Assembly: GCA_021014945.1 (NCBI GenBank)
Contig: MU266367.1
Span: forward strand, 62,001 to 126,000
Direction: 5' to 3'
Origin: Leucogyrophana mollusca
Lineage: Eukaryota > Basidiomycota > Agaricomycetes > Boletales
DNA: 64,000 nt
The stretch's first letter is position 1; the number at the start of each line of letters is the position of its first letter. A program made the position numbers and the translations under genes. Under the pieces are notes generated by a model. It was not told the origin of the DNA. It was given only the letters and a program-made list of their open reading frames with translations, and did no database searches. Below are positions 9,687-60,897 of this stretch, piece by piece.

Positions 9687-10517
9687 TCAGTCCTCCACGG
9701 GAGCTGCGTACAGAGTAATCTGTCACGATAAAAAACCTCAGTCCAACTATGCTTATTAAGAAAGAGAGAAAGAAAGGACTGACGCCGCCGGTACCAGCAA
9801 TTATCCCTGTAGAGCCTGGAGTAAGCGTGGGGCTCATATTGAACAGGAACTTCAAGCTTACGTTTTTCGACAGTAGAATCTTCAGCGATGTCTGACGCGT
9901 AAAGTGTGATCTTGCGGGATGAAAATTTCAGTCAGATTTCTCCCATATAAGAATGAAACGATACGACTCACACCCGCAGTGCCAGCCACGAGGGGCTCGC
10001 CTGAGGGTCGTAATCGTTAGCGTGGTGAAGGTCAATAAGAACACCAGACTCACGCTTCTCAACAGCAGAGTCCTCAGCGACGTCTGCTGAATAAAGCGTG
10101 ATCTGTCATAATGAATATTTAGAGCCAAGGTTTTCCTTCAAGAGAACAAAATACTAACACCACCAGTGCCAGCAATCAAAGGCTCGCCTGGGGATCGGAC
10201 CTTGATTGTTAGTGTCGTGCCGAAGCTCGAAGGGAATGTGAGGCTCACGCTTTTCGATAGTGGACTCCTCGGAAATGTCAGCTGAGTACAATGTAATCTT
10301 TTACAAGGAGGAAATCAACCACCGTAAGACGAACTGACAGAAATGACTGACCCCGGCGGTACCAGCCACGAGTGGTTCACCTGCACGGCCACGACCATGA
10401 ATATCTTGTCAAAGGGGTATTATATGAATCAAACACACGTTTCTCCTGGGCGGGTAAAGCGTGAACGCCAGCAGTCATAGTGACGAGTGCCGCAATGAGA
10501 GTGAAGGAAATCTGCAT
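9687..10517 (-). CDS. KEX2-type secreted repeat-peptide precursor A (candidate RiPP precursor)
   Basis: Nine exons encode 125 aa: 10439-10517, 10352-10380, 10249-10297, 10159-10187, 10054-10102, 9972-10000, 9862-9910, 9784-9815 and 9687-9719. A signal peptide (MQISFTLIAALVTMTAGVHA) and short spacer LPAQEKR precede four repeats. Short exons give EPLVAGTAG, EPLIAGTGG, EPLVAGTAG and STGIIAGTGG. Long exons give ITLYSADISEESTIEKR, ITLYSADVAEDSAVEKR, ITLYASDIAEDSTVEKR and finally ITLYAAPVED. Each EKR is a kexin site, and an intron splits its Arg codon C|GN. Every unit keeps AGT[AG]GITLY with one Tyr. Precursors of this layout feed ascomycete dikaritin pathways; the neighbouring UstYa-like gene supports this. 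The product is unknown. All joins are in frame. Confidence 0.88.
9784..10297 (-). repeat. Tandem 78-nt coding repeats split as 29-nt plus 49-nt mini-exons
   Basis: Within precursor A the exon lengths alternate 29, 49, 29, 49, 29, 49 and then 32 and 33 nt. Each pair makes one 26-codon unit. Introns sit at two fixed places: inside the Arg codon of EKR (phase 1) and before Ile-Thr-Leu-Tyr (phase 0). This is duplication of an exon pair together with its introns. Confidence 0.88.
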
Positions 10518-11500
10518 GGTAGGATGAATGTCGCAAATGCTAGAAACAGATGAAGGGGATTTGATGGAAAGTAAACTGTGAGCTGCGAACCTTTATATAC
10601 TGTTGGAGACGTTATGGGATCTGCCATGGCAGGACTCGTTGGCCTCAGTCTCCCTGTGTCGCTGTTTGTGCGGTTCTTTCCTTCATGTCTTTGTGATTCG
10701 GTCTTTCGTGTTTGTGTGGTTATTTCGTTCATCTACGAGCGATGTTTTCCATCAGAATGAACGCCAAGGACAGGATTCTGTTTTAAGATCGAACAACATA
10801 CCAAGGTGTAACATGATCATGAAAACCACATCATGCCGTGGCGGCAAAGGAGTATCGCCGACGGGTTCGTCAGGCCGTCTGCTACGTGCGCACAAATCCA
10901 TCATACACAAATCGGTTAAGTTTCTCGTGGTCACAGGTCCACAGATTATGTGCAACCTTGCTGTGAGCAGAACATGTCATCAAAAGAAGGTTGCCTTCAA
11001 TAGGTTCCGGACAATGTTCTCTCCCAATTTGGCAATTGCTGTGTTCAAGCTGTGTTTGTCTGAAAAACCCTCACTCCGAGGCCTCGTTCCAGAAACTTGG
11101 CAGCATCACGGGTCAGAGCTCTGTGCGAAGAGCTCAGCGCTCGTGCAGCTGGGATCCATCTATTATTGCGCGCTATGTCATCCACGATGCTTGATTCGTC
11201 ATTTGGATGCTAATGTCAATCTCTGACATGAGTGCTTAGATCTTCGGATTGCGCGTTGGGCGAAAGGTTTGCCAAGCTAGATTGAACCAATTCCGAGGAC
11301 CCGGATAACATTCTCTTCCCAAGGAAAACGCTGTCGATTATGGAACTCTGGAAGATCGGCCGGCCGAAAGTTGAGCTGATACGGACATCTTCTTTACTTG
11401 CCCCGTCATGCACATCGGAAAATTCATCCAAGAATTGATTTGAAACCAAGGAGCCGCTCTTGCCTTGCACCCCAGCCAAGCTTCCAACTCACCTGTGAAC
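10518..11500. other. Intergenic region between divergent precursor A and UstYa-like gene 1
   Basis: About 1 kb with no recognisable gene; open frames on both strands lack family resemblance. It carries the precursor A TATA box and must contain the promoter of the UstYa-like gene, so it may be a shared control region of the cluster. Confidence 0.5.
10590..10599 (-). promoter_or_regulatory. TATA box of precursor A
   Basis: TATATAAAGG on the minus strand, about 73-82 nt upstream of the ATG at 10517. Precursors B and C have similar elements at like distances. Confidence 0.6.
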
Positions 11501-12217
11501 ATGTTGCGAGTAACGAGTCCCTTTGCTGTTTTGTTTATGTTATCCCTCAGCCTTGGTCTTAACGTCTTGGCCGTCTACCGTCTTCGCATCCAGCGAGCGG
11601 AACCGGTGACCTACGTTTCCGCTGACGACACCCGCTACAGTGAGTTGAACTCAGTGCACTGTGCTGGCCGTCTCCTGACGTCCCGTGAATAGGTTATATT
11701 GGCGACGACCATCCAGCTCGACTACCAGTTGATCTACCATATGTCGCCCTCGAAATTGAAGACACAAAACGGTTTGGCATATCTGATCCAATGGCCTGGT
11801 CGGATTGGCGGAACACAGACCTATTCCCGCAATCGAACGGATTTGTGAGGTTGGGCGAGCAAGGTAGGCATTCTGCAATTTCCTGGCTTCACTTAGACTG
11901 ATTTGACCTGCGCCACCCCAGGTCGCATGTTTGGCATCAGCATGTTCCACCAAATGCACTGCTTGCAGATGCTTCGCAAGGCTATCATCGAGAAGGGCAG
12001 CGCGAACACTCATACCCAGCATTGTCTCAATCTTCTCCGCCAGGCTGTCCTCTGTGCAAGCGATACAACTCTAGACCCCATGAATGTCAGCGACGAAGGC
12101 AAGTTGATAGGGACAGACGGAGTTGGTATTGTGCACGTTTGTCGAGATTGGGAGAAAGTCTACGAATTTGTTCGGACGAATCAGATGGGAGATTATTGGA
12201 ACCGTACAAGTGCATGA
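11501..12217 (+). CDS. UstYa/DUF3328-family protein 1
   Basis: Exons 11501-11639, 11693-11863 and 11922-12217 encode 201 aa. One N-terminal transmembrane helix (about residues 6-26, starting MLRVTSPFAVLFML) is followed by a lumenal or extracellular domain. The family hallmark is two HxxHC motifs: HQMHC at 113-117 and HTQHC at 134-138, the second in the context HCLNLLRQAVLC. UstYa proteins catalyse oxidative macrocyclisation of Tyr-containing core peptides in ustiloxin-type RiPPs; that role is inferred here from the adjacent precursor A. The start was set by alignment with paralogue 2 (47853-48571). Exons 1 and 2 have identical lengths (139 and 171 nt) in both genes. Confidence 0.88.
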
Positions 12218-12458
12218 AGTATATCAAGGTATTCTTCCCATAATGAACGTCATTTTCATCTGGATTAAGCCTTAAGTTCTCGTTGGGACGGATCGAACGG
12301 GTGCCGGTTTTACACCCCAAGCTTTAACGGAGTTTTCTCCATGATGGGTGATTTGTTTAACCAGAAACACAGTATCAGTAAATCAAAGAAGCGTGCATTG
12401 TACTTCTGGGGCGCAAATAGAATAAACGCTTTGCGACAGAGAGGCTTCTATCAGAAAT

Positions 12459-13443
12459 TCACTCCAGGACCCACACATCAAAGGCTATGGGACTCCCAAG
12501 TCACTATCGGAACACTAACGTTATGAGTAGTTAAAAAACTTACCCATCGGGGGGTCCGAAAATATTTGCTCGAAGTTCAGCTTGCAGTCGCTGCATGCAA
12601 CCTCGACCGCAATTCGGCTATCGCCCCCGCAATCAAAGAGTGGTGTCGGGGGCCTGAGTTCCATACCATCGCGTCCCTCCCTAGGGTCATCAGCCTCTGG
12701 GCCAGGCGTGAAGTTAACGGTACCCATGAGGGATTGGCGTGGTGGTCGGGTATTCCAACTCAATGCTGCCGGTAGATCCCAATATGAAACGTTCCAGATT
12801 TCAATGGCACTGGTATCACCGTCAGAGACGTAACTCTTGCTTCCGGACTGAAGCTGGGACTTGGTTGGAACTGCAGCAACGACGTAACAAGTGCTATTTG
12901 CAGGGTTCTTCATGTGCCAGCGGATGAACATCGAATCCTACAGGGGGTATCAGATTAAAGGATGTTTCCTCATCGCCGTTTGGCATTTACCGATGGACTC
13001 AGTGTCACTGAGCTCGAAGTCGTGTAAGTTCGATCTGGTTCCTCCGCGTTGGCGCGCACGATGTAAGAAGGAAACCACATCTTTGGCGCTGTGAACGCGC
13101 AAGTCAATTCGAATAGCAGGACGTGAACATGACGACATTGCTCACCAGATTTGAGCGCGAGGGCACGATCAATATACTCCAGGTTCGGATACGGAGTTAC
13201 TTTGCGCAAGGATGCCACAAATCGGGGGTCGGAAATATCGACAACGGACGACGAAGAGATGCTGGAGTGGAAGAACAAGGATATCAGGATCGAGATAAAA
13301 GACACCCCAACGGCTAGCTGTAGGGCTGTAGAGGTTGGCCGTTCGCTGGGGGCTTTCTCATCGAAGGTGGGCTCAACACTGACATCCCCCTGCTCGACAG
13401 CTCCGGACAGAAGAGGCAGATAATGGTCTCGGTTTCTTTGCAT
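12459..13443 (-). CDS. Single-pass membrane protein of unknown function, cluster paralogue 1
   Basis: Exons 13146-13443, 12991-13088, 12544-12937 and 12459-12484 encode 271 aa. A cytosolic N terminus (MQRNRDHYLPLL) precedes a transmembrane helix at about residues 40-60, then a large lumenal or secreted domain with VVDISDPRFVASLRKVTPYP, CYVVAAVP, AIEIWNVSYWDLPAALSWNT, PPTPLFDCGGDSRIAVEVAC and a final AFDVWVLE. The last 26-nt exon was placed because the paralogue at 59910-60897 has the same one. I do not recognise a function. It resembles a widespread basidiomycete membrane family, sometimes labelled But2-C-terminal-like, but that is recollection, not proof. Its 3' end converges on the UstYa-like gene. 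Confidence 0.8.
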
Positions 13444-15002
13444 CGAACAGCAGGTGGGGGTTTGGGAGACGTCGATACGGAATGCGGGTATCAGACTACC
13501 AGTGACCCCTGAAACACAACAAATCCCGGTTACGTTGTCCAAGACATTCAAGTCTTGGTCACAACCCTCGGAGTACAGCGAGAAAGAGAACACGCTTCGC
13601 AGTTTTCTAGATTCCTCGTAACGCTATCTCTCTGCATGAGTAAACGTTTAGCGAATACCACGCCAATGCTTTCTGGGAATGCGGGCTTCCAAGCCACCGT
13701 GAGGCCGCTGACGGTGCAGGGAAAGCGAAGCAGACAACATGCCGGATCGGCATTGCAATGGAGGTTGTAGAATCGAAGGCTTTGACACCGGAATGCATGG
13801 AAGGTCGTGCTTACCTGCACCACAGTAAATTACGCTCTCGGCATCGACAAAACATAGCGGCATGGACTCGGAATATCCAGCCCAGAGGCTCAGGTGGCGT
13901 TTGAGTGGCATTACAAAAGTCTTGTCAGACGATCTCGGAAAACAAAAAGGTGAATAAGTTCTGCGTCCTTCCGTCCATTTACTTGCCATACCATCAGATT
14001 GTGTCGTATCTCCGCATCATCAGGTGCACTGGGTGTATGCGATTCGCACTCTCGCAGTCGAGAAGAACAGGTGGGGATCACACGCACCACTGCCTCGATG
14101 TTAAGTGCCAAGCATTTTTTAGAGAGCAATTCCGTCCCGATCCCTCCGTGGGCGATGACGGATTGATTTGTGGCAATGGAAGGAGGTGGAGTCGTATATG
14201 GGGGCTGAGGGGAGACACAGGTGATTTTGCACAAATAAGTCGATCGAGTAAAACCTAGGACGGTCCGGGTGTGCGAGGGCAATGTCCCATCTTTGAACCG
14301 AAGCTTGCCAGCTCGAAATGTTCGCTTTCTTGAAACAGTATATCTGCTGACCATGGTGTGAGCGCCAATAGTTCCCTCGATACCCTGAAATCTCTAAACA
14401 ACCAGTTCATAATTCTCCCTCAAACTTGCCCCAGTATATTTCAAACCCGTGGCTTGGCCACTGTCGATCAATAAGAGAGCACCCAGGTGAAAAGAAAACT
14501 TACCAACCTGTGTAACATGACAGTGACGGCCAACCATATGTTACCTTGGTTCAGTTCAGCCACAATAAACGACTGTCATCATGCCAGAGGATGGCCATCC
14601 CCGAGGGTCACGCATTCGCCAGCGGAGGACGCGGGAGCTAAGAAGAGGTTAATGCAATTTGAGCCTCAGAACAAACATGCCAACTGCCACTCATTCATAA
14701 ATCCCCGCGGATTCGGCAACTATTCGGGGCAACTACACAGGTTGAGCAAGGTGGAACCTTCATCCAATGGCAAGGAAGCCTGTCGGAGGCAGGCGAAGAT
14801 AACGACGAGCTCGGTGGGGCCCCAGCGAGGACCCAGTAGGCCGGGGTCGGACGGGTACTACAGTGTTACTTAGCTTAGTATGTTTTCTTTCCTGCTTTAC
14901 GACACTAGTAAACCAATGGAAACCGAAATGCAATACTTCTGCACGTACAGATGACTAGTATTAATACACGAAGACTATAACAAGGGACAGTTTGGGTCAT
15001 GA
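13444..15002. other. Intergenic region, no gene recognised
   Basis: About 1.5 kb between membrane protein 1 and amidotransferase-like gene 1. Open frames up to 147 aa exist on both strands but overlap one another and show no motif, signal peptide or plausible intron pattern. Confidence 0.5.
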
Positions 15003-16174
15003 TCATGTTACAAGGACAAATACACTGTCAGTCTTTATCGGGTCCTCTGGGCTGGGAATGTCCAATGACGGGACACCGGACAGGACAAACGAATGCCTAG
15101 TCGATAGTGCCCACATGATCATTGTGATCCGGTACCAGTCAAGGATTCCCTTGAAGTTCGCGATGCGTGCACGCGCCTCGATAACGGATTCTGGGTCTAC
15201 CTTATCCTCAAACAAGTCGAGCAAGTACGACGTCATTCCCTGCGTGAGCTCGGGATGGCCCTGGCAAGTGAAGATATGGATATCATCCACGTTAAGCTTG
15301 CCACTTTTCTCGGCCTCCTTATTCCACGCGACAAAGCCTTGATTCTCCGTTTTCTCGCTGTGCCCCCAAATGTGGAAAGAATTTTCGGGCACATTGGTTT
15401 CGTAAGGCGCCTCCTCGCGCAGGTGCTTGAAGAACGCAAGTTGGCTTTTGGAGAACACAGCGTTACGGTGGAACTCCTCAAGAACCTACAGGTTTTCAGT
15501 ACTCAGTATGACTTAGGAGCGTCTCATCATGACCAGTGCACGTACCAAGTTATCCACACCTCTGAAAAGTTCCTTCCCGGTGTGACTCAATGTGATGTTG
15601 TATGGTCCTATCTCCCACCCTTGAGGATTTGGTCCGACCGGGCTGCCGAAAACAGCTTGAGCAATGAGTTGGTGGCCGAAGCAGATCCCTGTTGCCATGT
15701 GCGTCAGAAAACTGTAAACATTCTGTTGAAGATATCGGCACTTGCCGATAAGCTTGACGTTTCGGTGCTTCGTAGCAGTGGTATGCAAGAACGTTCCAAG
15801 TTTTTTGATCCATTCTTCGTCATCGTAGGGACTATTAGCTGATGTATAACGTGTCATTAGGTACATGCCTTCGATGACTATACAACAGGCGTACCTGAGC
15901 CTGAAACTATGATTGAGGCATATTTATCGACTTCGTCCAAAGCAGGGAGTTGTCCCTGCATCGCATTGAACGGGTCGATACGGAAAGACTTCATGACATC
16001 GGGTAGGAATGGGTCAAAGGCCTTTCCGTCCTCCGTGAATCGAATCAGCAACTTCGTATAAAGACTGGTAAAGAGGTTGGTGATGTTTCCGTAGGAATCA
16101 ATGAACTCCTTTTTGGTAGGGTCGCAGATCAACAAAGCAATCTTCGAGTGAGGGGGTAATGGGATTGTTGTCAT
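15003..16174 (-). CDS. Class I glutamine-amidotransferase-like protein 1
   Basis: Exons 15895-16174, 15746-15838, 15546-15688 and 15003-15485 encode 332 aa. The fold is that of class I GATase-like hydrolases (yeast YLR126C or plant gamma-glutamyl peptidase type). The nucleophile Cys127 lies in ICFGHQLIAQAVFG; the His249-Pro-Glu251 part of the triad lies in IFTCQGHPELTQGM. Start MTTIPLPPHSKIALLICDP; end DSVFVLVT. No synthetase partner domain is present, so it is probably a free-standing hydrolase or peptidase. A role in trimming Glu-rich peptides is speculation. Intron 2 has a GC donor (G|GCAAGT) where its paralogue at 53329-54554 has GT. Exons 2 and 3 match the paralogue in length (93 and 143 nt). 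Confidence 0.88.
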
Positions 16175-16250
16175 GGTTTAACAGCGTTCCGCTAAGGTGT
16201 GCAGGAAGTTTCAAGTTGGACTTTGAAACGCTGTTAGCGCTAGATCCTTG

Positions 16251-16280
16251 CCCTACTTATACTTCGCAGTGAGCGCCAAT
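16251..16280 (-). promoter_or_regulatory. Conserved core promoter of amidotransferase-like gene 1
   Basis: The minus strand here contains GCGCTCACTGC followed by AGTATAAGTAGGGC. The same block lies upstream of paralogue 2 at 53234-53263, with about 26 of 30 positions equal, at a similar distance from the ATG. TATAAG probably acts as the TATA element. Confidence 0.6.
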
Positions 16281-17656
16281 GGAAATGAGCTCCGACATAG
16301 TAACTCACGGAATCTACATTCCTCCTGACATTCTACTGTTCGCTTCAACAACTATAGGAAGAGGCTAACGCCGCGACTGCCTCTATCCGGATATCATGGC
16401 TAGCCTCATTAGGTCCACGGCGATAGCGAATGGGCTACAGCTGACGGAGAGGGGTATCAGACCACATCCAGCATGTCACTTGACTGAGCGGGAAGAACAA
16501 GTCAGACCGGACGCACTCACCATTGGCCACATAAGGGACGGTCTTCTATTCATGCACAGGACTGACGTCGAAGTTTCGGCACAAGACTTTGGACGCAAAG
16601 CAGTGGCATGATTGCCGCCCCCCCATGAAAGGTCCATCAGAGAAGGAAGCCAGGCCTCGCGTGTGATTATCGTCCTGAATCATCTTTCCCCTTCACTGTT
16701 GGGGGAAGGTCGGTTTGACCCATGTCACCTGCCAGGTGTAACTGGTAGACTTGGTAGAACATGCGGGACAGCCAAGGACACTAGAAAAGTGGGTCTCAGA
16801 TCGACGCTCTTCACATGGATTTGCGTGACTCTTTCACTACTTACTGTCATCCAAATATGCTGCCTGCTGGAAGCCCCGTTTTTGTTCAGGATCTTAGTCA
16901 CTGGAGCTCAGCAGCTATAATCAGCCCCTGAGCCTAGAAATCGAAGCACTGGAAAAATAAACATATAACTTATAAGTCAAACCTAGAAAGGAACAGCCGT
17001 TACCTTTGATCTGTTGAAGCAGGTTTCATAAAGACTGGCACGCAAGTTGGGTTAGCGTACGGGGAGGTCTTGGAGAAGTTCATACTTTTTTGTATCCAAT
17101 ATATTCTGGGAGGACTGCTTCCCTGCGAGACTGCCTATCTCAGCCTTTATTGAACTTTCGGAAAAAACCTTGACAGAGCAACTGAAAGAAAGAGGTGAGA
17201 GGGATTAACGCGATCGTGATCGCTGTCAGTGTGATGTATCATTATTGATCGTGTTCGCACGACCACATATAATATGTGGGGCCCAGCTCTGTCTTTGTCA
17301 ATCAAACTCTCGTCTTATTTTCGATCAGCAATTGCCCTTCGCCGTCTTGTCCGTTCAAAATACGATTGCTCCGCCGAATGGAGTGTTCTCCACTTTGTTT
17401 TACAAAGGGAAAAAAGTCGTAGTCCCCTCGACAATCAGAGTTCAATAACTCGAGTGAGAGTTCGAGGGTTAAAAAATCGTCGCCCGCCTGTCGTACTTGC
17501 ATACATACCTAGTGGATATAACGAATTCGTTGTCAATTGTGCATCTTTTGGGTCCCTTGCGGTCAGTTGTCAAATGATCTGTCACAGCGAAGCTGAACGT
17601 TGAAATGTTGATTTCGGGCGTTCGTGACAACCTACTCTAGGTCTTATTCATCGGAC
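16281..17656. other. Intergenic region, no gene recognised
   Basis: About 1.4 kb between block 1 and the MED9-like gene. It is relatively AT-rich near 16920-17200, with short open frames only. A palindrome-like gcgatcgtgatcgc at about 17210-17223 stands out, without known meaning. Confidence 0.4.
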
Positions 17657-18146
17657 ATGAATTCTCCTCCACCGCTCCCGTCTGCGCTCTTCCAAAGTCT
17701 CCTCACTAAGCTCGCCGCCGTTCTCGAATTGACCCAGAAACCAGACGGTACAACCACGCCGCAGGCGAAACAAGCCCTTCTCCAAGCCGTTCGTAACTCA
17801 AGCACTCACATCTTCGCGTTGATGCTCAGATTCTCGACTACATAGACCAATGACTTCAAAAACGCGCTCAACCGGGCCAAAGAATGTGCCAACACGTTGC
17901 CTGGGGGCGATCTCCTCATCGAAGAACAGGATGAAGTGATTGACATGCTGGAAAGGTTACGTGAGCACAAAAGGTACGTGCGATACCTTCTATGCTCAGA
18001 GATGGACAGGCTGAAGAAAGGAGACACTGACGAATCGTGTGCGACTCAGATTGCAGCTGGCGCAGTTCGCAACTGGCACCTCCACCTCGGATGCAAGTGC
18101 GAAAATGGAAGTGGACTCAACGGCTTCGACACCGATCTCTTCATAA
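17657..18146 (+). CDS. MED9: Mediator subunit 9-like protein
   Basis: Exons 17657-17788, 17846-17973 and 18050-18146 encode 118 aa. The core reads FQSLLTKLAAVLEL, then TNDFKNALNRAKECANTLPG, then EEQDEVIDMLERLREHKR, the helical hairpin of Med9/Cse2 in the Mediator middle module. A short Ser/Thr-rich tail ends TASTPISS. Introns are phase 0 and phase 2, and all joins keep frame. Identification rests on the pattern of the helical domain and small size, so it is good but not certain. Confidence 0.75.
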
Positions 18147-19253
18147 CCCTTCGCTATCAACATCCGGAGCGTTAGTCATGACTGACATCATTTCATCATT
18201 TCCTTCACCTCAGCCTTACACGGGCGTATTCGTTACCTTCCCGCCTCGATGGCATCCACGTCCGTCCTAAACTGGTCGAGGACAACTCCCATTCTTGTCG
18301 GATCGCTGTGCGTCCATTTATATGGTGATCTACAATCCCGAGGTCTTCGTACGTGATTGTGGTCTTCTCGAGTCCATCATCACCGGAGCCGGGCCACTGC
18401 GCGGGAGCGGGAAGGGGAACGGCTCAGCGGAAGGGACGCACGTTTTTATGGGCAGGAAGAAAGTAGGAGTGCATGAGTGATAGCGCTGTGGATGGAGAAT
18501 TACAGGACCCATATCATATCATCAATTGTTCAACATCCACCCCCGCCTACGCGAATGAGCGCCGACGGACGTTCTTACCACAGTCTGCAGAGCACTTCCA
18601 CACCAACTCGCTCCCCCCGTGTTCTTCCTCTTTGGTAATAGCGAGTTACTTCCTGCATGCGTCCTCACCATCGCACATGTTATGGTCGCCACGCACGCCC
18701 TACATGGCCTAACAACACACACTCCCGGCCGTTCCAGAAGCACTACACATCCGGCGCCCGTACAGAGACAGCAAACACTGTTGAGGCAAGTGAGTTTGTA
18801 TCAGGCCGTGGCGGAGGTTATTGACAGAGGTCAGAGGGGAGGATGTGCGATATTTACGCCGATGTATGGGACACTGTTGCCTGCGCGATCGCTATACTCC
18901 AAGAGTTTGCCTGTGGGCCTTGGGACGAGAGGGTCGCAGTTTGAGTCGGTTCGAACCTGTCTGATTCTATAACGAAATGCGAAATTTTTAAGTCTGTCAC
19001 GGTCTTAGAGACTGCTCTGCGATGTTGCCCTAACGGCGGTGGAGCCAGCCAAGTCGACGAGATTGATCGATGCTGTCTGTTCTTGGGGAAGCTGGTGCCA
19101 CAAAACAACCACAAAATACTGCTGCGAGTCACTTCAAGTTCTCGTTCAAGTTATCGGACTCAGAGACACAACTCTTGACTGAATTCGCGTCAGATCTGTG
19201 TACTACTGCATTGGACGTGCGATATATCCCTTCAACGGAATTTATACCATACA
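18147..19253. other. Region with possible unrecognised minus-strand coding pieces
   Basis: About 1.1 kb. On the minus strand one continuous frame near 18200-18430 reads GDDGLEKTTITYEDLGI and then IRQEWELSS, and another near 18855-18950 reads KLLEYSDRAGNSVPYIG. Both have a coding feel, but I could not join them into a gene or name a family. A short conserved minus-strand gene, possibly convergent with MED9, is conceivable. Confidence 0.25.
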
Positions 19254-23635: not shown

Positions 23636-23902
23636 TACCGTTGCTGGTAATATTTTGCATAATTGTTGTAGTATGTATTATTAGCCTGCCGCTCTCTAAT
23701 GACATTACTTGCCTGCTCGGTGATCTGTTGCTAGCAGCCGCTACCAAGGCCTGGGGCCGAGGGGGGGGGGACTCCAGCCAGCGGAAAACGCTCATTCCGC
23801 TTCGACATCGCTTTTGGAATAACTTGTTCACTGCCCGATTCTCAGGAAATTTCACTAATATTGAATCAACAGGTATATGGAGACCACAACATCTTGCTCC
23901 CA

Positions 23903-34967: not shown

Positions 34968-37787
<2,820 letters not shown>

Positions 37788-47852: not shown

Positions 47853-48571
47853 CTAGACATGTCCTTGGCTGCTGTTCCACACACTACTCAGATGATTCGC
47901 CCTCACAAAATCATACACCTTCTCCCAATCCCTGCACACGTGTGTGACCCCAATTCCATCCGTCCCTATCAGTTTCCCGTCGTCGTCGACGTTCAGAGGG
48001 TCCAGAGTTGTATCGCTTGCGCAAAGAACAGCCTGGCGTATGAGGTTGAGACAGTGATGAGTGTGGACGTCCGCGCTATTCGGCTCAATGACGGCCTTGC
48101 GAATCATTTGTAGACAGTGCATCTGGTGAAACATGCTGACTCCGAAAGCACGCCCTGCAACAATAGTTGAACAAATTGAAGGACACGGGGTATGTGTCAT
48201 ACTTGCCTTGTTCTCCCAACCTGACGAACCCGTTCCCTCGCGGGAAGAGGTCTGTGTTACGCCACTCGGGCCAAGCTTCTGGGTTGGATACACCATACCG
48301 CTGGGTGTCTTCAATCTCGAGGGCCACATATGGCAGATTTATTGGAAGGCGAGTCGGGTGGTCATCTCCAACGTAGCCTGAGCGGTTTGATGTCAGGTGG
48401 GCTGCGGGTCACGTCAATCGAAAGCAGCTGACTGTAATGGCTATCATCGACCAGCGCATGGGGCTCAGCGGTCGCTCGTTCGGCGCGTAGACGATATATG
48501 GTCCAGGCATTTAGACCGAGACTAAATGCCAACGTCGATAGAGCAATAAACAACGGCGTCACTCGTAACAT
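47853..48571 (-). CDS. UstYa/DUF3328-family protein 2
   Basis: Exons 48433-48571, 48207-48377 and 47853-48154 encode 203 aa, closely related to protein 1 at 11501-12217. N-terminal transmembrane helix (MLRVTPLFIALSTLAFSLGL), then SYVGDDHPTRLPINLPYVAL. Motifs HQMHC at 113-117 and HTHHC at 134-138 (HCLNLIRQAVLC). Exons 1 and 2 are identical in length to those of protein 1. Intron 2 uses a GC donor (CAAG|GCAAGT) where protein 1 uses GT. The expected role is oxidative tailoring of a Tyr-containing peptide, here with precursors B and C close by. That is inference from family and context. Confidence 0.88.
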
Positions 48572-49628: not shown

Positions 49629-49956
49629 ATGCAGCTCTCCCCCGCCATCATCGCGCTCTTCGCCACCTTGATTACAGGGGTCTGTGCGCTCCCCTCTCCG
49701 GACGAGCGTAAGCAGGGTTGACATGCTCTTTGGTTGACTCTAACACTGGCGGCGCTCAGGTAATTTTGCGGCTGACGTGGCCAAGCGTGAGTTCAGTGAC
49801 CCTCTCGATCCGTACTCGTGCTAACGAGTATGATCCCAGGCGAACCTGAGGAGATCTCCCACGTCAGTGCCGAGTGCTTTTTTTTGCAATTGACCAAGAA
49901 CTCATACGAACTTATTCTAGCCTGAGGGTTACTACTATCTGATCAAAGCTGAATGA
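49629..49956 (+). CDS. KEX2-type secreted peptide precursor B (shortened)
   Basis: Exons 49629-49707, 49760-49786, 49840-49862 and 49921-49956 encode 54 aa. Signal peptide MQLSPAIIALFATLITGVCA is followed by LPSPDER, NFAADVAKR, EPEEISH and PEGYYYLIKAE. Exon 1 is 79 nt, as in A and C. Introns split the Arg codons at C|GN, and a phase-0 intron follows the His of EEISH as in C. The stop falls inside an exon that continues as an ..AGAAGC|gtgag boundary of the family type. The exon would be 44 nt to that boundary, which is out of frame, so B seems to have been cut short by a small indel. Confidence 0.8.
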
Positions 49957-50116
49957 GAAGCGTGAGTTCTATCACGATGGTCTTGTTCGTCTTGACGTTA
50001 TGAATGTGGATGTTCCTCAGGTGATGCATGATGCTGTAGTCTAGAAGGTGAGTTCATTGTTGCTGATTCCAGAGGGCGCTGCTAATATCAATGGTCCCAG
50101 TGATTCAGCGAACCAT
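49957..50116 (+). pseudogene. Vestigial repeat exons downstream of precursor B
   Basis: Past the stop, family-type boundaries persist: AGAAGC|gtgagt at about 49957-49962, ctcag|GTGATG at 50020/50021, and cccag|TGATTCAGCGAACCAT|gtcag at 50101-50116. The last closely matches exon 2 of precursor C (GTGATTCTGC.. CAT|gtcag). These look like lost repeat units. Confidence 0.65.
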
Positions 50117-53100
50117 GTCAGTCTTTCGGCGATGAACATCGTTGGACACTGTGCTCAACATATACTGATTCGTCCTGTAGTAGGATGTGCATGACTGTGG
50201 ACCTGAAGTCGGACAGGAACTGGGTTTGCCAAGAGGCTGAAATCACCGCGTTTTTCTCAAATTTATGCTCTCGTTCACTTCATTCCGAGATTCGTATGAA
50301 CATCCAATGTACTTTGTGTATCTTCGTCCACCTATCGTGATCGACCATTAACGGACTCCACTTCGAGCTTTCTGAAACGAGCCGAATGCCACTCCGGGAA
50401 ATGCCGATCGGCGAATCCCCCAGGACAGCTTCAGTTAACTGCCCAATAGTATCCGCTCGCCAATAACTTCTGCTGCTCCCTACACCTTGACATCAGTTTC
50501 CTCTCATCGTCTACTTTTGGAACGTTAACATTCGCCCCGCTCTTGTGAATGATGGGGTGGTCTGGCGTAGGTGTGGGCAGCAATATGTTTGCGTCCGTTG
50601 CGCTCTGAGTCTGTTCAAATCCACACCGAAGCCCTCAACCCGACGATGCTACTCCTGCGAGATCTAAGCTTATGCTATGCTATTCAAGATAACGCTCTCT
50701 CTGCTGGATTTTTAATACATGGCATCTACCGGAAGACAAGTCAAACGCTTGTTTGCAGCGTAGTCTCGGTTGGGTCAACTTCAGGTGGGCTCTCTGTTGT
50801 CCTTCGAATCTTTGAAACGACTGAGCGTAGGCCCGGGAGCGACTCGCTATCAACGAAAACACCGGATTCTGTGTTTTCCCTCTCGTAAATTTGGTGACAT
50901 ACACGTAGCTGGAGGTTTAGCGAGACCAATGCGATGCCATCACTCTCGATGTGACCTATCATGAAGTGCCTGCATCCAGGGAGCGGGGCAATTGTCGATG
51001 AGCACTGCAGCAGGCGACTAACGCGGCTATACTACTCCTGCGCTGGGTCATATCAAAGGTGTGTGATAGCGATAGATTGGTCTAGGCAGAACTCTGACCT
51101 GTATAATTATCTGAGCGTCAGTCTCTCTCTGGAGTCCCACATGCCAGTGTACAGGTAGGCAGCGTGACAATACTTCCATTTGGCGCCGTCGACACTTCGC
51201 AGGTTTCCACTTCTTGCCAGAAGTAATGGCTATGTATATTCCGGGTCCGGGTCTGGATATTGTTTACAGTTGGCGAAACCCGCTCCACCATGCGGCTATC
51301 CTACACAGCGAGCCTCGCGGTCGCCAGGTCTCAAGGTATTGGCATGTTTTCAATTCACCTAACGTCAATGTTATACACGGGTATTTCGCACTGTCCAGAC
51401 CTATTGATCGTAATTCAAGGTTACGTCGCCGACCATATCTATGTTTTTGGTCAAAGGCATTGGGGCTCTCATGCCGTCGTTGGTATGTGATGATCTGCCG
51501 GCACTTGACTTTGAAGTCGCTCACCGATTTGACCAACGGCTTGAAGACAATCCCGACAAAAATGCCCGACTCATCAGTGGCGCATCTGACATGTCTCTGC
51601 TGCAGGGTAGCGAGTAGAGTCGAATAAGTTCACCGACTTTCTGGGTATCTCTGCATGGCCATGCGAACACGATCAAGAATGCTGCACCCCACTGGCGGCG
51701 ACCACGATCGCTTGAGCGCCTCTTAACATCACATCCTTTTGTTGATGTGGACTTGGCAAAGCACAGTGAAAGCAGGGGGAAATGGCCACGAACGGAGACG
51801 AAGAGTCAGCTCCTCCCAAAAGAGCCCTGAGGTTCCTATGTAGAACAATGAGCCGCTCAGCCTCCTTTGCTTGTCAGCTGTTCTCGAGATCCTTTACGGA
51901 AGCTCGATGAAGCTCGAGATAACCGGCCTTTCACGGACGAGCTCATTCAAGAATATGTTTCTATGCGGAAGGTATGTACTTCTCGAGACCTTCCCGAATG
52001 CTGGTTCTACTTGCATACCTTTCTACACTTTTGCCAGTCGCCCATGTCGGTTTTGCAGAACTGAATCTATGGAGTCAAACTCGCACTCAGCGCGGGGCGA
52101 TGCACTTTTCTCAACAGATCAAGGGTCACTGGCGTCTCTTTCTGGGCGGTTGAACGGGGGATCTAAAAACTCAAATCTGAACATCTGAACTGACGGAAAT
52201 CTCCATGATCGGCAGCGTAAGTTTACACAAGGAGCACGACTGGATACGCTGGTAATTTCAGATTTCATGTTTCTTTTTCTCCCACTTAAATCTTGCTCGG
52301 CCCGAAGGACGATTCCAGCTGCTGAAAATCCAGTAACCAAGTAACTAAGCTCTTAAGTTAGGTGGGTTTTGCGCAAACCAATGTGAAGTATCGTTGATCC
52401 GAGAAGCATCCTGAGCTGTCTGACATGTTCAACCAGTTGTGCCTGACCCAAACGACTTTCTTCCAGAAGCGAAGGGCTGGATAATTCATATCGATAATCA
52501 CGGATGTTTGGCTTTCTTCTACAATGAGTGAGGTACCTACCTGCCCCTAATTTCTACGAAGGCTGTCGGTATCAACAGTGAGCCGCTGCCTTGCGCGAAA
52601 GTTCTCGGGCTGCTCAAGTCGAAGCTTCGACATCAATGCGGGTGAGGTAGTCCCTCATGTGGTGGAACCTCAAGCTTGAATCATCCATGGTGAGTGCATC
52701 AGATCTGACTTGTTCAAGTTGTTGTCCCTGCTCGGTTATGTGAATAGGGTTGACGAGCGCCGGCTGACCTGTAAACGCCCTGCGAAGCTCCGAATGGATA
52801 TTTTCTCATGTACTTTTGGAACGCCCATGATCTCCCCGCGATCGTCCATTGCCGGGATGTCTTTAGTCTTCCCACTATGACATACCGCAAAAGGAAGTCA
52901 GTCACTCCTAATTCTTCAGTCCACTTCGTGTCTGCAGTTCTGATCCCCTTGGCTTATCAGATAATCTACCTGCATTACAGCTGTCAATGATATGTAATTG
53001 TTATGTTGAGAACGCCGTGCACTGATGAGGGTGTGCATAGTACGCAGGTAGGAGCAACTGCGGCATTAGCCACACTCGTCTGGCGATTACTGCGACCTCG

Positions 53101-53328
53101 TGCAACGTGTTTGGTTCACAGGATGGGTCTACTCAGGGCATTCCGTGTCATTGTCACGTACATATGATCACCAGGCCTGTTGAAGCGGAAGGGTCCACGT
53201 CAGAAGAAATGTTGCGACCGTGTTTGGATCGCATTAGCGCTCACTGCAAGGTATAAGTTGGGCAAGGATATGAAGCCCAAGCCCACCATCGAAACTTACT
53301 GTACACCTCAGGGGAACACCGCCAAATC
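50117..53328. other. Long region without supported genes
   Basis: About 3.2 kb. The longest open frame (51214-51627, plus) has no recognisable motif. A frame near 51870-51960 (LCLSAVLEIL) is equally unplaced. It may contain decayed relics of the duplicated block, but I found no matches to the other cluster genes by eye. Confidence 0.4.
53234..53263 (+). promoter_or_regulatory. Conserved core promoter of amidotransferase-like gene 2
   Basis: GCGCTCACTGC followed by GGTATAAGTTGGGC, matching the block at 16251-16280 upstream of paralogue 1, about 66-95 nt before the ATG. Confidence 0.6.
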
Positions 53329-54554
53329 ATGTCACTCCCGCCTCACTCGAAGATCGCTTTGCTGATCTGCGACCCGACCAAAGAAGAGTTCATTGATTCC
53401 TATGGAAACATTACCAGCCTCTTTACCAACCTGTACACGAAGCTTCTGATTCAAATGACGAATCCCTCTTTTACGCGGTCATTCCTGCCCGCCCTGCCCG
53501 AAGTCATGAAGTCATTCCGTATCAGCGCGTTCAATGTAATCGAGGGACAACTCCCTACCAATGTCGACGAATATGACTCGGTCATGGTTTCAGGTTCAGG
53601 TACGCTGGTCGTAGAGCTATCAAAGGTAGATACCTGACGTCGCAATATACACTAGCGCACAGCGTTAATGATAGTGATGAGTGGATCAAGACACTCGGAA
53701 AGTTCTTGAATGAGACTGCGACGAAACACCCAAAGGTCAAGCTTATCGGTAAGTGCCGACATCTCTGACAGTACGCCACACAATTTTCGGCTTTCTGAGA
53801 CACATCGTAACAGGGGTCTGCTTTGGCCACCAAATCATTACTCATGCTGTCTTCGGGAACCCGGTTGGAGCGAACCCCAAAGGATGGGAGATAGGACCAT
53901 ACGAAGTCACACTGACTGACGCCGGGAAACAAATATTCAGAGGTGCGAAAAGTTTGGTAAGTGCATTGATCATGATGAGATTTCCCCGATGTCATACTGA
54001 GTAATGGAAACCGGTAGAATGTCGAGATGTTCCACCATGATGCTGTGTTCACTAGTGGTCAGCGTGCGTACTTCAGGCAGCTATGCGCAGCGATGCCTTA
54101 CGAGAAGAGCGTACCTGAAAACACCTTTCATATATGGGGGCACAGCGAGAAGACGGAGAATCAAGGCATTGTCGCATTGAAGAAGGAGGCGGAGGAGAAA
54201 GGCAACCTCAATGTGGACGACATCCAGATCTTCACTTCACAAGGCCATCCCGAGCTCACGCAAGGAATGACGTCGTACTTGCTTGACCTGTTTGAGGATG
54301 AGATAGACGCAGACTCCGTTGCCGAGGCGCGTTCACGCATCGCGGATTTCGACGGGATCCTTGATTGGTTCCGGCTGACGATGTTCATGTGGGCATTATC
54401 GACTAGGCACTCGCTTGTTCTCTCCAGGCTACCGGTCCAGGTCACTCCCCCTCACGGTGTCAAGAACCCGTTCAAGGAAGCCAAGTTGACAGATGACAGG
54501 TTAAGGGTGAAGGCGAATGACCCGGATGAGAGTGTATTTGTGCTTGTCGTATGA
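53329..54554 (+). CDS. Class I glutamine-amidotransferase-like protein 2
   Basis: Exons 53329-53599, 53656-53748, 53814-53956 and 54018-54554 encode 347 aa. Start MSLPPHSKIALLICDPTKEE. Nucleophile Cys124 in VCFGHQIITHAVFG; the His-Glu pair is in IFTSQGHPELTQGM; end DESVFVLVV. It is closely related to protein 1 (15003-16174), with equal lengths for exons 2 and 3. The C-terminal part is about 15 residues longer (VKNPFKEAKLTDDRLRVKAN). Free-standing hydrolase of the yeast YLR126C / plant gamma-glutamyl peptidase type; substrate unknown. It lies about 370 bp upstream of precursor C on the same strand. Confidence 0.88.
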
Positions 54555-54853
54555 TCCTGATCCAAATAGCTCCCTTGCTGTAGTGCTCGTGTACTTGTAC
54601 AATGTGCTTCCCTAGGTCCATCAGCTATATGTATAAAAGTTGCAATCTTTGATGTGTTTCCATGGGGGTTTAGCGTACGACTGAGATCAGAGCGGGAAAT
54701 TGTTTGTGAGCCGGTGTGTACATGACTGATAAGTCGGCTCAAACGCAGCCCGGCAGAGTAAATGCGACATCAAAAGGGTGTCGCAATGGATTGCATTGTC
54801 TGATTCGAACAGCAAGATTGTATCTAAAAATGTCAGCAGCGTGGTCCACCGGG

Positions 54854-54860
54854 TATAAAA
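54854..54860 (+). promoter_or_regulatory. TATA box of precursor C
   Basis: TATAAAA, 66-72 nt before the ATG at 54926. Confidence 0.6.
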
Positions 54861-54925
54861 GAAGGCTCAGCTCAGACAGCTTGACTAGCAAGCCGCTCGG
54901 TTTCGAAGCCAAATCCGTTGATACA

Positions 54926-55503
54926 ATGCAACTCTCTCTCACCTTCGTCACGCTCCTTGCCGCTTTGACCGCAGGGGTATGCGCTCTTCCTTCCCAGCAA
55001 AAACGTAGGTCAAGCTGACGCTATAAGCGGCACCGCACTAACATTCACGGCGTTCAGGTGATTCTGCAGCGGGCCATGTCAGCAGCACACTCTCCCACCT
55101 TTGAGCTGGACTTACAATCGATCATAACAGAGCACAGGGTCCGTCGAGTATGACATCGCCGAGCGTGAGTTCAATCATTGTCGAAGGTAGGTGTTGTGCT
55201 GACCACCACATGAACCCCAGGCAACCCGCAAGCCCATGTCAGTACTGTTGATTATCGTCTTAGTCACGGGACTCACATTGACTCATACCAATAGCCCCTT
55301 GCCGACTATATCGAAGCTGCGGATTTCGTGGATGAGAAGCGTAAGTGCAATGATTGTATCCTTTGACACTGTGCTGACAGCTGTGGACTTGCAGGCGATA
55401 CAACGGAACATGTTAGTCGTCCTGGGGTAGTCTCTGTTTGACGTTGAGCTTACACTTTACCGATTAGCCTGTAGCAGCCTATGGATTGGGTGTCGAGAAG
55501 TAA
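54926..55503 (+). CDS. KEX2-type secreted repeat-peptide precursor C
   Basis: Seven exons encode 82 aa: 54926-55004, 55058-55077, 55131-55164, 55221-55237, 55295-55340, 55395-55411 and 55468-55503. Signal peptide MQLSLTFVTLLAALTAGVCA, then LPSQQKR. Units are DSAAGH plus STGSVEYDIAER, NPQAH plus PLADYIEAADFVDEKR, and DTTEH plus PVAAYGLGVEK. Short exons always end in His at a phase-0 intron; long exons end in K/E-Arg split C|GN. Each long exon carries one Tyr in a different setting (VEYDI, ADYIE, AAYGL), so this gene would yield three different peptides, unlike the near-uniform repeats of A. All joins are in frame. Function is inferred from cluster context. Confidence 0.87.
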
Positions 55504-55652
55504 GCTAGGGGTAGTAGTGGAGCCGAGTAGATCGCGTGGCTGTGTTCAATGTGGCTGAAATGTGAGACAATATACCTAAAGAAATGAGACCTTCCGGCGG
55601 GTTCTGAGGTCTCGGGGTCTGTTGTTCGTTATCCTCGACGTTGTTGAATGCG

Positions 55653-58600
55653 ATGGCGGAGCGAAGTATCGGTCGAGCATGGACAGCAAGCGAGGACGAA
55701 ATGCTATCCCAGGCAGTAGCCATCCATGGGGAGATCGACAACTGGAAGGCAGTCGCCACTTGTGTACCAGGCCGCACCAACAAAGCTTGTAGAAAGGTGC
55801 TTCATTTCCCCCCAAAAAACACATATACACAATCTGAACCTCCATATCAGCGCTGGCTTCATTCTCTCTCGCCAAATATCAAGAAATCAGCCTGGACTAT
55901 CGAGGAAGATACGATCCTTCTCGCTCTCTACCAACAACACAACACAAAATGGTCTATCATAGCCCGTAACATCCCTGGTCGCACAGACGACGCTTGTTCA
56001 AAACGTTATCGCGAGGCCCTTGATCCGTCTCTCAAACGAGACGAGTGGACACCTGCAGAGGACGAACGCCTCATGGAATCATATTCGAGGCTGGGCGGCC
56101 GCTGGGGCATCGTGGGCCAAGAGCTCCAGCGTAGCGGCCTCGCATGCCGTAATAGGTGGGAGCTATCTCTTCCATCTTGTTAGCCTGTGCCACGCGTGTT
56201 TACCGAAGCGCCTTGTCTTCCTTTCTTCGCTTCCAATAGATGGCGACTCCTCGAACGCAAACGAACAACGCTTCCCTCTGTCTCGCCTCCCTCCCTCTCT
56301 TCATCACCAACGTTAGCCTACAGTCCCTACCAAGATCCCTCCTGGATGCTTGACCACGGCCAGGGTCAATCTCAGTTCTGCCACTGGGACGAGAGTCAAC
56401 TTCCACACTTTGATTCCTCTCAGCCCCCTTCACATGCCCAGATGCAGGATTTTTCGCCCACTTTCCACTACTCGTCTTCCTCCCTTAGCTCTGCCCTCTC
56501 TCCTCCCCCTTGTCAGCAGCAGCAACCACAACAACCGAGGAACGAATATCAACAGTCACCCGTTGATGTTCGTTGTCAGAACCAGAACCTCCCGCTCAAC
56601 GGCTCAATATATGGACTTCACTTCGATTACGGGCTTGCTGGCAATCATAGTGCTAATGCAGACCCCCACCATCGCGACACGTGCTTCAACGCCGACAGTC
56701 ACGCTGTAGCTGTGTACGAGGACAGAATTAAACACCTCGACGGACTGCAGCGAAGTGTTCCACACACCCGCATCTCGACGCCGGTTCATTCCACATTGGT
56801 GCATGGGTCTGCTCCGCCCGCTGCGTCTGAAGAATACTATTCTACCCAGCGACAAGAGCATATGCACGCTGCGCCCCAGCAACAGCAGAAGGTCACGAGT
56901 TCCCAGCACCAGGAACCTTTGCGGTCCCAGCAATGCGGAATCAATGCTTCCCAGCAACTCGATGGGCACGGGGCGGACGCTGCATACTATCAGGCACTGA
57001 CCCCTCATGCCGAGTACGTCCCTTGTGGTTGGGGCTCGGACCAACTTCTTCGGTACGAGCATGAGCAGGCTCTCGCTCGCGGATACGAACAACCCATCCG
57101 TCACCATCGCGAGCAAAGTATCTCACACATGCACGGGCAAGGTTATTATGTAGCTGCAGCCCAGACTCAGCAGATGGATCGCCCTGCACCGCAGCACAAG
57201 GAACACGATCACTACGGATCCCAACCGTTGCACGCCTCTCTGCCGTCACACGTATCACAAACGTCCCCAAATTCCAGCCCGTCGTCCACGGAGTGTTATT
57301 CGTCTCTGCCACCGCCTCAGCATCCCTCATCTACACCCGTGCCCTTTAGTGAACCTGCTCCTATACCGTTCAGTGAGCCTGATATTAACAGCAATAGCGG
57401 ATACATGCCCCCTCCACCTTCTCGTACTCCTGCGCCTGCCCAACCTCAGCCTTCGCACCACCAACCACAACCCCATCCCCAGCATCAACCGCAATCACAG
57501 CCCGTTTCAGTGACATCTATGTACGCTCACGAACAGCGGTCACGTCATTCGGTCACGCCCTCGATATACGCTCGCGAGTCAGTACTTCCTCAAGTAATTG
57601 GGAAACCTTCGCCGTTCCCAACCCGCGGTCCTACTCCTCCGGCGTTTAATCGCGAGCCATCGATGTTCTCTAAACGCGACTTTGGCGGTCGCGATTCTGA
57701 ACCGTCAGCTTTTGGCAGTCGTGATTCGGCAGCATTCGGAACCCAGCCGTCCGATCCCAACGACGCACTCAACAGGTTCCGAACGTCTGAGTCGCTCTTT
57801 GGTCCGGCGGCGACAAGCAAGGTTCGTGCGCGTCCCACGTTCCCCAGGAAGAAGCCCGATGTCCAAGCGCCCCTGAGGCTATCAAGCGATTTGCCTGCTA
57901 CTTCCGAGTGAGTCGCGTTCACTCCTCGCTTCCTTTCAAACTGTCACCATCTCATTAACGACGATATCCGTTCTCGCATCTTACTTCACTAAAATCACCG
58001 CTAATCTGGCCTAACATTAATACTGACTTCACGTTATAGTGCATCAATAAAACCGTACGCTTGCGGACACCCCTCGTGCTGGCCGTCCGAAGCTTCTGTC
58101 AGTGCGGCTTGCTATTGTACGTCGCGTGGACTATCAGACCACAATAAGACGATACACCCGGAAGACTCGGGCGGAGATCGACCGTACCGATGCGGGCTGG
58201 AGGGATGCGGGAAAAGTTGGAAGGTAGGTGCCAGTCTTTTTACATCATTTTTTTCCTGTTCCGTGAACGTCGTGGTATTTTTCAACGTGTCTGTGATTGA
58301 TCCTGACAGTTTGTTCCTCCCCGCAGAGCATTAACGGACTGCAATATCATTTGCAAATGTATGTTCACGATGCTTTTCCTCGACCCGTACTAATACTTGG
58401 ACGCGGATATCATAGATCTAAAGCTCATTTCCAGCACGCAATTACGAACAGCTTCCAGGTTTCGTACATAGGTGGTCTGAGCGTACCACCATCCGTCCAG
58501 GCATCCGTATCTTCCAATTCCAGTTCATCTTCCCCGCCCTCAGGCTCGTCATCTTCTTCCGGGTCCACTTCAAATACCTCAGACGGAGGAGACGTGGAGA

Positions 58601-58934
58601 AGGGGAAGAAACAATATTCGTGTCCGCACGATAACTGCTTCAACAAGTACAAGCAGTTAAGCGGGTTAAGATATCACTTGGCGCATGTCAGTCTTCCGTC
58701 TCTTGTCCTTGATCTTTGATTCTGTTTGCTAATACGGCTCGTCGACTGGCTTTATAGGGTCACCCTCCAGAGCTCCCTGCCCAACTAGACCTTGTCCCAC
58801 CCGCCCTGACGAGGAAACTGACAGAGAAGATGCGTGCACAACAGGCCGCCGCTGCCCCTCCAACTGCTTCGCAACAGCTACCGGTGATATCTGAAGCACG
58901 CCAGACCCAGAACATGGTTCAGGCGCTCTCATAA
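55653..58934 (+). CDS. Myb (SANT) plus C2H2 zinc-finger transcription regulator
   Basis: Exons 55653-55796, 55851-56155, 56240-57907, 58040-58223, 58327-58358, 58416-58686 and 58758-58934 encode 926 aa. Three Myb/SANT repeats: RAWTASEDEMLSQAVAIHG, SAWTIEEDTILLALYQQHN and DEWTPAEDERLMESYSRLGG. A long Gln/Ser/Pro/His-rich low-complexity middle follows. C-terminal C2H2-like fingers are ACGHPSCWPSEAS, YRCGLEGCGKSWK with SINGLQYHLQ, and YSCPHDNCFNKYKQ with GLRYHLAH. This Myb-plus-C2H2 pairing occurs in agaric nuclear regulators. It begins only 149 bp after precursor C and sits inside block 2. Whether it controls the cluster or is an unrelated neighbour is unknown. Confidence 0.87.
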
Positions 58935-59909
58935 AGTCGCTCCCTGGCTCATGAATCGCCTTATTTTAAAAGCTGTATTTGTCTAATCTTTCGCCCTTCC
59001 GGCCTCACACTATCGTTCTTATCGTTTTATGTTCACTGTGCTTTAGGATGTCGTCCCTCCCGGCCTTTCATCTATCAATCTCTCATTCCGTGGTCCCGCT
59101 TCTATCGTTGCTTGCTTGTCGCTCACATTCATTCTTTCTCATCCATTTTGCAGTATCAGTACCAGTACCAGTATCTTATTCTGTACTTATGGGTTGTACT
59201 TAATCTACAAGTTTCGGATTGGATTGGATACATACGAATTGTCCAGATCTTGAGACTGCCCATTGTGAGTGCTATTGGTTGTCCCTGCAACAATTGGGTG
59301 GTCCTAACAGACCACGGTATGCTGTAATCACAGGAGAAGGTCTACCATAGAAGGAAGCTGTAATTGTTCCAAGCCTGCGCAGCCTCCGATCCATCCCTTC
59401 CTGGGTCAGTCGGATCCACACAGAAGAGTGGACGCCGCCAAGGTGATTATACCAGGAAAGTTCAAGCTGCCTGTCATTGTATGACAATGTATTGATATCG
59501 AACCGGTGACATCGATAAGCATACCCCATCCGTCCGTGTTTTCCGCATCATCCCCATGCCCATGAGTACGCTCTGCGGCCCCCTGCATCATGTGCGTCCG
59601 ATTCATCAGAACGATCTATCTATCGGGTCTTTCCCATCATTTTCGATCCGAGTTCGCATGGCGGAGCTTTACACTTGTATGGAAGGTTGACGAAAGGTCG
59701 CTCATCTGCTGAAGGCGGCCGGTACATACTCTTTAGCCGGGCCATTTGATGCAAGCGAGGCATTCAATGTCGTCCACTAGATCACCCGCTTATCTCTCGG
59801 TTTATACCAGCCACCGTATACACAGGTATATACCCGAAGTCCTAGCACATACACCAGAGACAGGTCGGAAGTCACTGGTGGCGCAGGTCGAAGCTCTCGA
59901 GATCGAGGT
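58935..59909. other. Intergenic region
   Basis: No gene seen between the convergent Myb/C2H2 gene and membrane protein 2. A short tandem repeat of cagtat/cagtac type lies at about 59152-59176. The upstream part is T-rich and may carry 3'-end signals. Confidence 0.45.
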
Positions 59910-60897
59910 TCACTGCAGGACCCAAACATCAAATGCTACAGTGACAGCACCCGTGAGTCGTGATATCTCATGAACCGAAGTATCGAAAAGTGCAACGTAC
60001 CCATCGGAGGGCTCGAGAACACCTGTTCAAAGTTCAGTCTGCAGTCATTGCAAGCCACTTCGATAGCTATCCGACTGTCTCCTCCGCAGTCGAATAACGG
60101 CGTTGGTGGCCTGAGTTCTATGCCCGCACGCTCTGGGTCGTAACCCTGTGGGACAGGGGAGAAATTGACTGTGCCCAAGAGTGACTGACGCGGTGGTCGT
60201 GTGTTCCAGCTCATTGCAGCGGAGATGGCCGAGTATGAAACATTCCAAATTTCAATGGCACTGACGTCTCCCTCAGCCACGTAGCTCTTGTTTCCTTGCA
60301 AAGCTTCGGTGGCGTTGGGAACCACCGCGGTGACGTAGCACCTACTGTTATTGGCGTTCTCCATACGCCAGCGGAAGAACATAGAATCCTAGGTGACAAG
60401 ATCCAGTCAGGACAATATACAACGGGCCCACTTAATCACTGACTGTAGGACTAAGTGTCACGGAACTCGATGTCGAGTACAGCTGATCTGGCTCCGCTGA
60501 GTTGGCACGCGCGATATAGCCAGGGAACCAAATCTTGGGCACTATTCAAGTCATGAATCGATCCAGCAGACACTGCAGGGAAGCGTCACGTCTACTCACC
60601 GGATTTAAGCTTAGTGACCTCATTTAGGTGCTCCAAGTTCGGGTACGGTGTTACTTTTCGCAAAGACGCGAGGAATCGAGGGTCAGAAATGTCCACGACA
60701 GTCCTTGGAGAAGTGGCAGTGTGCAGGAATATGGCAGACAGTATGGAAACAAAGGACACCGCGAGCGTTACATAGAGCGCTGTGGAGGACGTTGGCCCTT
60801 GTGCATTGGTTTTGTAAGGAACGATTTCAGGGCTTACATCTCCATCTTCTCCAGACCTGGAAAGAAGAGGGAGGTAGTGTTCGTGATTCCTTTCCAT
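59910..60897 (-). CDS. Single-pass membrane protein of unknown function, cluster paralogue 2
   Basis: Exons 60600-60897, 60444-60541, 60001-60388 and 59910-59935 encode 269 aa. Three of four exon lengths equal those of paralogue 1 (12459-13443). Start MERNHEHYLPLLSRSGEDGD; one transmembrane helix (ALYVTLAVSFVSILSAIFLH); then VVDISDPRFLASLRKVTPYP, VPKIWFPGYIARA, AIEIWNVSYSAISAAMSWNT, PPTPLFDCGGDSRIAIEVAC and a final AFDVWVLQ. Four cysteines in the outer domain are shared. Function unknown. Its pairing with UstYa-like and precursor genes in both blocks suggests a part in the same pathway. Confidence 0.8.

Follow-up and report, generated by a model that had tools for sequence, protein, structure and literature searches.

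The window analyzed here is a stretch of 64,000 nt from the wood-decay mushroom Leucogyrophana mollusca (Boletales), located at C41:62001-126000 of an assembly of 32.3 Mb in 545 contigs. It contains two regions in which genes for putative Kex2-processed peptide precursors lie together with genes for UstYa proteins, class I amidotransferase-like proteins and membrane proteins (Table 1). All of these, including precursors A, B and C, had been proposed in a first-pass annotation, and each was found where it had been placed, in an open spliced frame. Gene models were rebuilt from DNA and their splice junctions are predictions. The gene set extends past the right edge of the window (position 64000), where a further UstYa copy and a further precursor were found.

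Table 1. Genes of the precursor/UstYa regions in the window and just past its right edge.
Feature	Position	Strand	Description
Precursor A	9687..10517	-	125 aa; 9 exons 79/29/49/29/49/29/49/32/33 nt; signal exon and four two-exon repeats
UstYa 1	11501..12217	+	201 aa; exons 11501-11639, 11693-11863, 11922-12217; HQMHC and HTQHC
But2-domain membrane protein 1	12459..13443	-	271 aa; exons 13443-13146, 13088-12991, 12937-12544, 12484-12459
Class I amidotransferase-like 1	15003..16174	-	332 aa; above Pfam GATase cut-off
UstYa 2	47853..48571	-	203 aa; exons 48571-48433, 48377-48207, 48154-47853; HQMHC and HTHHC
Precursor B	49629..49956	+	54 aa; exons 79/27/23/36 nt; C-terminal EPEEISH/PEGYYYLIKAE
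Class I amidotransferase-like 2	53329..54554	+	347 aa
Precursor C	54926..55503	+	82 aa; exons 79/20/34/17/46/17/36 nt
But2-domain membrane protein 2	59910..60897	-	269 aa; exons 60897-60600, 60541-60444, 60388-60001, 59935-59910; annotated BV22DRAFT_1031891
UstYa 3	C41:127053-127733, just past right edge		Reading frame broken
Precursor D	C41:128396, just past right edge		Exons 79/27/23/36 nt; stop placed as in B

The precursors share an unusual exon structure. Exon 1 is 79 nt long in all three window precursors. Downstream of it, each repeat is encoded by one short and one long mini-exon, with two kinds of intron in alternation: a phase-1 intron splits the Arg codon of the Kex2 site, and a phase-0 intron interrupts the repeat. 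This alternation ran straight from exon 1 in 8 of the 11 genes tabulated (members outside C41 are labelled by contig), while B, D and C86a first carry an extra 27-nt phase-1 exon. For the non-terminal repeats tabulated, the summed short and long lengths are divisible by three (e.g. 29+49, 20+52, 17+40, 14+55 and 8+37 nt), and each repeat is therefore a symmetric cassette; with these intron phases, gain or loss of a cassette would keep the frame. The core intron was longer in some members (144-146 nt in C58, 209-220 nt in C270b). In precursor A, exon 8 could be read with 23 nt in place of 32 nt. The idea that precursor B is a single broken gene was rejected: precursor D has identical exon lengths and stop position, so the short frame is not peculiar to B.

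Repeats were of the EPLVAGTAG/ITLYSADVAEDSTVEKR type in precursor A and of the NPQAH/PLADYIEAADFVDEKR type in precursor C, with variants in both. Elsewhere in the genome, C58 carries five copies of an EPIGE/YFLASEEGTAVEKR-type repeat, C270b four copies of an APIF/YTIAEDESENAEATTVEKR-type repeat and C391a eleven copies of a KGYDITGGD-type repeat, and C86b reads ASPATH/WSDSVVYYPSEGPWNEKR. Repeats are parted by KR, RR or KK in A, C, C58, C86a, C86b, C270b and C391b. Every repeat of A and C contains tyrosine, as does the last exon of B, and the long mini-exon encodes it in the models of A, C, C38, C58, C86a, C86b, C270b, C391a and C391b.

The family was followed across the genome in three ways. 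A position-blind search with precursor A (E ≤ 10) gave 15 rows. Ten of them mark precursor places beyond the window, and UstYa is found on the contigs of 8 of those ten. Loci fetched for closer reading (301,383 bases) had been picked for UstYa and are consequently a biased sample; within it, a scan for any signal exon of 61-103 nt whose reading ends in K, R or E followed by a split Arg codon resulted in 14 rows at 13 places, all with a 79-nt exon, one place having an additional 82-nt row from a second start. A 27-base exon-1 signature built from the scanned exons matched 16 times genome-wide, against zero matches for the reversed pattern. Three places were new with this signature: C58, away from UstYa, and two that lie near it. 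Exon 1 measures 82 nt in C270d and C391a, both among the three. Of the 16 signature genes, 15 have at least one Lys-Arg-split exon past exon 1, against none of 400 shuffled versions of the DNA downstream; the exception is C47, unreadable beyond exon 1. Two further candidates on C267, retrieved by the precursor A search, have neither a signature match nor a UstYa match on their contig. When all candidates were pooled, 15 of 18 lay on contigs with UstYa matches. Reading was partial for C270a, C270c, C391c, C267a and C267b, and model ends are uncertain for several members (C86a, C86b, C58 and C391b).

The UstYa assignment is clear for both window proteins (Pfam scores of 73.5 bits for UstYa 1 and 72.4 bits for UstYa 2; cut-off 25), which are identical at 137 of 203 aligned positions and have exons of 139/171/296 and 139/171/302 nt, respectively. 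Both carry two HxxHC motifs, the pair used for recognising DUF3328 proteins related to ribosomally synthesized and post-translationally modified peptides (RiPPs) (PMC12048977). Two predicted introns start with GC instead of GT, one in UstYa 2 (48155-48206) and one in amidotransferase-like 1 (15689-15745).

UstYa matches were merged by hand into 31 genomic places, stubs and broken copies included, and zones of 7 kb around them cover about 1% of the genome. Signature matches fell within 3 kb of a UstYa place in 10 of 16 cases and within 7 kb in 13 of 16. A loose control, PF03330, gave three places, all on contigs without a UstYa match. The surroundings of C364, C417, C499, C343 and C19 were read as short loci only; C364 and C417 hold UstYa gene clusters that are the best matches to the Pfam profile in the genome, yet distant from the UstYa of the window.

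The membrane proteins, described as an unknown family in the first-pass annotation, belong to But2 (PF09792), with scores of 41.3 and 32.9 bits that exceed the curated cut-off (24.2) in both copies; among 30 family members, 24 gave a Pfam But2 match at E ≤ 0.1. Exon lengths in the window were 298/98/394/26 and 298/98/388/26 nt, the last exon having been set by the annotated protein and the family alignment, and the corrected models agree with the annotation. The proteins have a single membrane helix and are predicted to form a beta-sandwich. A sequence search of solved structures with But2 found no match (best E of 2), nor did Foldseek with the full predicted model at E ≤ 0.001. But2 genes of the window kind were, genome-wide, within 7 kb of UstYa places in all eight cases. 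In Mycena polygramma, the annotated C-terminus of the But2-family protein DFH06DRAFT_1481296 is made up of three Tyr-containing repeats of Kex2 type. But2 is most likely a non-catalytic binding or scaffold subunit alongside UstYa, and it is a plausible candidate for a new partner protein of that enzyme.

Taken together, these genes, motifs, exon grammar and genomic association probably represent a UstYa/Kex2 RiPP system in a basidiomycete: a dikaritin variant with cassette-like precursors. The UstYa-type, Kex2-processed system proposed at first is supported by the Pfam matches, the double HxxHC motif and the joint recurrence of the precursor, UstYa and membrane-protein families. Known dikaritins (ustiloxin, phomopsin, asperipin-2a) likewise combine a signal peptide, Tyr-core repeats separated by Kex2 sites and a UstYa/DUF3328 gene within a few kb; unlike them, the L. 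mollusca system is basidiomycete, has two-exon cassettes with alternating phases, and has But2 beside UstYa. To our knowledge, amatoxins/phallotoxins and borosins do not arise through UstYa acting on Kex2 repeat precursors. These are the basidiomycete RiPP classes named in reviews (PMC9233826, PMC6514808, PMC7099791).

With dikaritin pathways as the model (PMC6514808, PMC9233826), the precursor would enter the secretory pathway through a putative signal peptide read from exon 1. Cleavage by kexin after the Lys-Arg sites between repeats, for which a kexin-type P-domain gene is present on C125, would release peptides made of a Tyr-containing core and an acidic tail. A membrane-anchored UstYa oxidase with its double HxxHC motif may then oxidatively modify the core through Tyr, most likely by crosslinking, with But2 acting beside it through its one-helix anchor and beta-sandwich, and the acidic tail would be trimmed off.

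Several observations weigh against this interpretation. The converse association is weaker, a signature match being found within 7 kb at only 11 of the 31 UstYa places, and the C58 precursor and the two C267 candidates are on contigs without UstYa. The UstYa copies near the C38 precursor and precursor D are stubs or broken. On C193 and C289, UstYa and But2 stand in tandem with no precursor readable by exon chaining or motif density, and none could be read either in the fetched UstYa/But2 loci on C139, C512, C8, C140 and C101: exon chaining placed 29 of its 30 rows at precursor loci, the 30th (C139) being without a Lys-Arg-split exon, and the ten rows of the motif density scan included none on these seven contigs. 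Binomial tails overstate the significance of the association because the counted genes are mutual duplicates. In C391a, only 2 of 11 repeats end in KR, the other 9 having TR, AR or IR at this point, so that cleavage is doubtful in this member. Precursors B and D are 78-87% identical in exons and 83-90% in introns, with no exon excess. As a separate observation, the tandems on C193 and C289 are near-identical to each other (86% over 2.7 kb).

An alternative is that the products are linear, secreted signalling peptides, as with pheromone-like Kex2-processed repeat proteins (KEPs), the proximity of UstYa and But2 having another cause or the two proteins having different substrates. We consider this unlikely. 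Several repeats do begin with X-Pro (EP, AP, GP) directly after the Kex2 site, which resembles the STE13 signature of pheromone-like KEPs that Le Marquer et al. treat for basidiomycetes (PMC6339444), and Umemura 2020 is sceptical that cyclization is widespread in Basidiomycota (PMC7329392); yet X-Pro is absent from members such as C86b and C391b, most cores contain Tyr, and the association with UstYa is close. Ascomycete alpha-pheromone genes, moreover, are reported to lack neighbouring DUF3328 genes, versus 17 of 76 pheromone-like basidiomycete KEPs that have them (PMC7329392).

Still less probable, and in our judgement very unlikely, is that the precursors are mostly decaying relics, or structural repeat peptides comparable to Rep1 of Ustilago, without a modified small product. 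Degraded or partly readable members exist (C47 beyond exon 1, C270c, C391c and C267b, together with UstYa 3 and the C38 stubs), and the comparison of B with D would fit such decay. Against this, the grammar is intact in most members, within A, C58, C270b and C391a sequence similarity is higher among mini-exons than among introns, and nonsynonymous divergence (dN) is well below synonymous divergence (dS) for UstYa and But2, dS being saturated for both.

The weakest alternative, that a single four-gene unit including the amidotransferase was duplicated as a block, is disfavoured to the point of being hardly credible: both C41 regions hold all four families, but dS between them is 2.55 for UstYa and 2.56 for But2 versus 0.64 for the amidotransferase, block-2 UstYa groups with C86 and C139 (support 88/96) apart from block 1 in a tree with 7 of 10 inner branches unresolved, and amidotransferase genes were within 7 kb of UstYa at 2 of 8 places, both on C41, the other six being on contigs without a UstYa match. 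Single block duplication was accordingly rejected on the dS contrast and the tree position, and the two duplicated blocks of the first-pass annotation are better described, on the same grounds, as members of a dispersed family. Of the families it had described as recurring as a set, precursor, UstYa and membrane protein do recur together genome-wide; the amidotransferase was rejected as a regular member on the 2 of 8 places and is probably a neighbour of the system.

The two amidotransferase-like proteins of the window are identical at 221 of 352 aligned positions, and the closest solved relative of the first is plant gamma-glutamyl peptidase 1. Two of the eight amidotransferase places (C10:2859-4267 and C406:16081-17489) scored equally and are perhaps one locus assembled twice. 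Between and around the UstYa regions, 8 of 20 open reading frames (ORFs) scanned had Pfam matches at E ≤ 0.001, namely TFIIB/BRF1, HAD-type (below cut-off), WD40, MCM, Myb, PRELI, ABC transporter and RINT1. No tyrosinase, peptidase or transporter genes were recognised in the scanned ORFs adjoining the precursors, the scan covering these 20 window ORFs only.

The system had also been called possibly undescribed. In this respect, KEPs beside DUF3328 genes have already been counted in basidiomycetes, at 103 of 1680 (6.1%) in Umemura 2020 (PMC7329392), and 16 UstYa-like genes are given for Pleurotus in a mushroom transcriptome paper (PMC8893723). The mini-exon cassettes and the But2 partner were not found described: a limited literature search found no title on either, a term search of the main texts of Umemura 2020 and Le Marquer et al. 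2019 found no mention of mini-exon structure, and the words intron, exon, splic and gene prediction are absent from the main text of the former (PMC7329392). The L. mollusca precursors resemble the KEPs of both surveys in being secreted repeat proteins with Kex2 sites, and differ in that most of the detected family lies near UstYa, against the proportion in the Umemura survey. That survey left cyclisation of basidiomycete Kex2-repeat peptides open because of the 6.1% of catalogued peptides near DUF3328 genes. One suggested reason for the low count is that mini-exon precursors may escape surveys of protein catalogues; in DNA, most of those found adjoin UstYa.

A broader reading is possible but distinctly more tentative than that of a dikaritin variant in L. 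mollusca. Mushrooms may possess a distinct class of peptides modified by UstYa, with But2 as membrane partner and with modular precursors in which all repeats are phase 1-1 two-exon cassettes, so that cores could be added, lost, swapped or skipped by alternative splicing in frame. If so, such genes would so far have been overlooked, since gene callers and protein-catalogue surveys fail on as many as 24 mini-exons. The exon-1 signature and the alternating phases offer a simple DNA test for other mushrooms, and But2 is a concrete candidate for a UstYa partner. The cassette design would serve as a natural model of peptide-library evolution, and the system may be a way, so far little noticed, for mushrooms to produce modified peptides.

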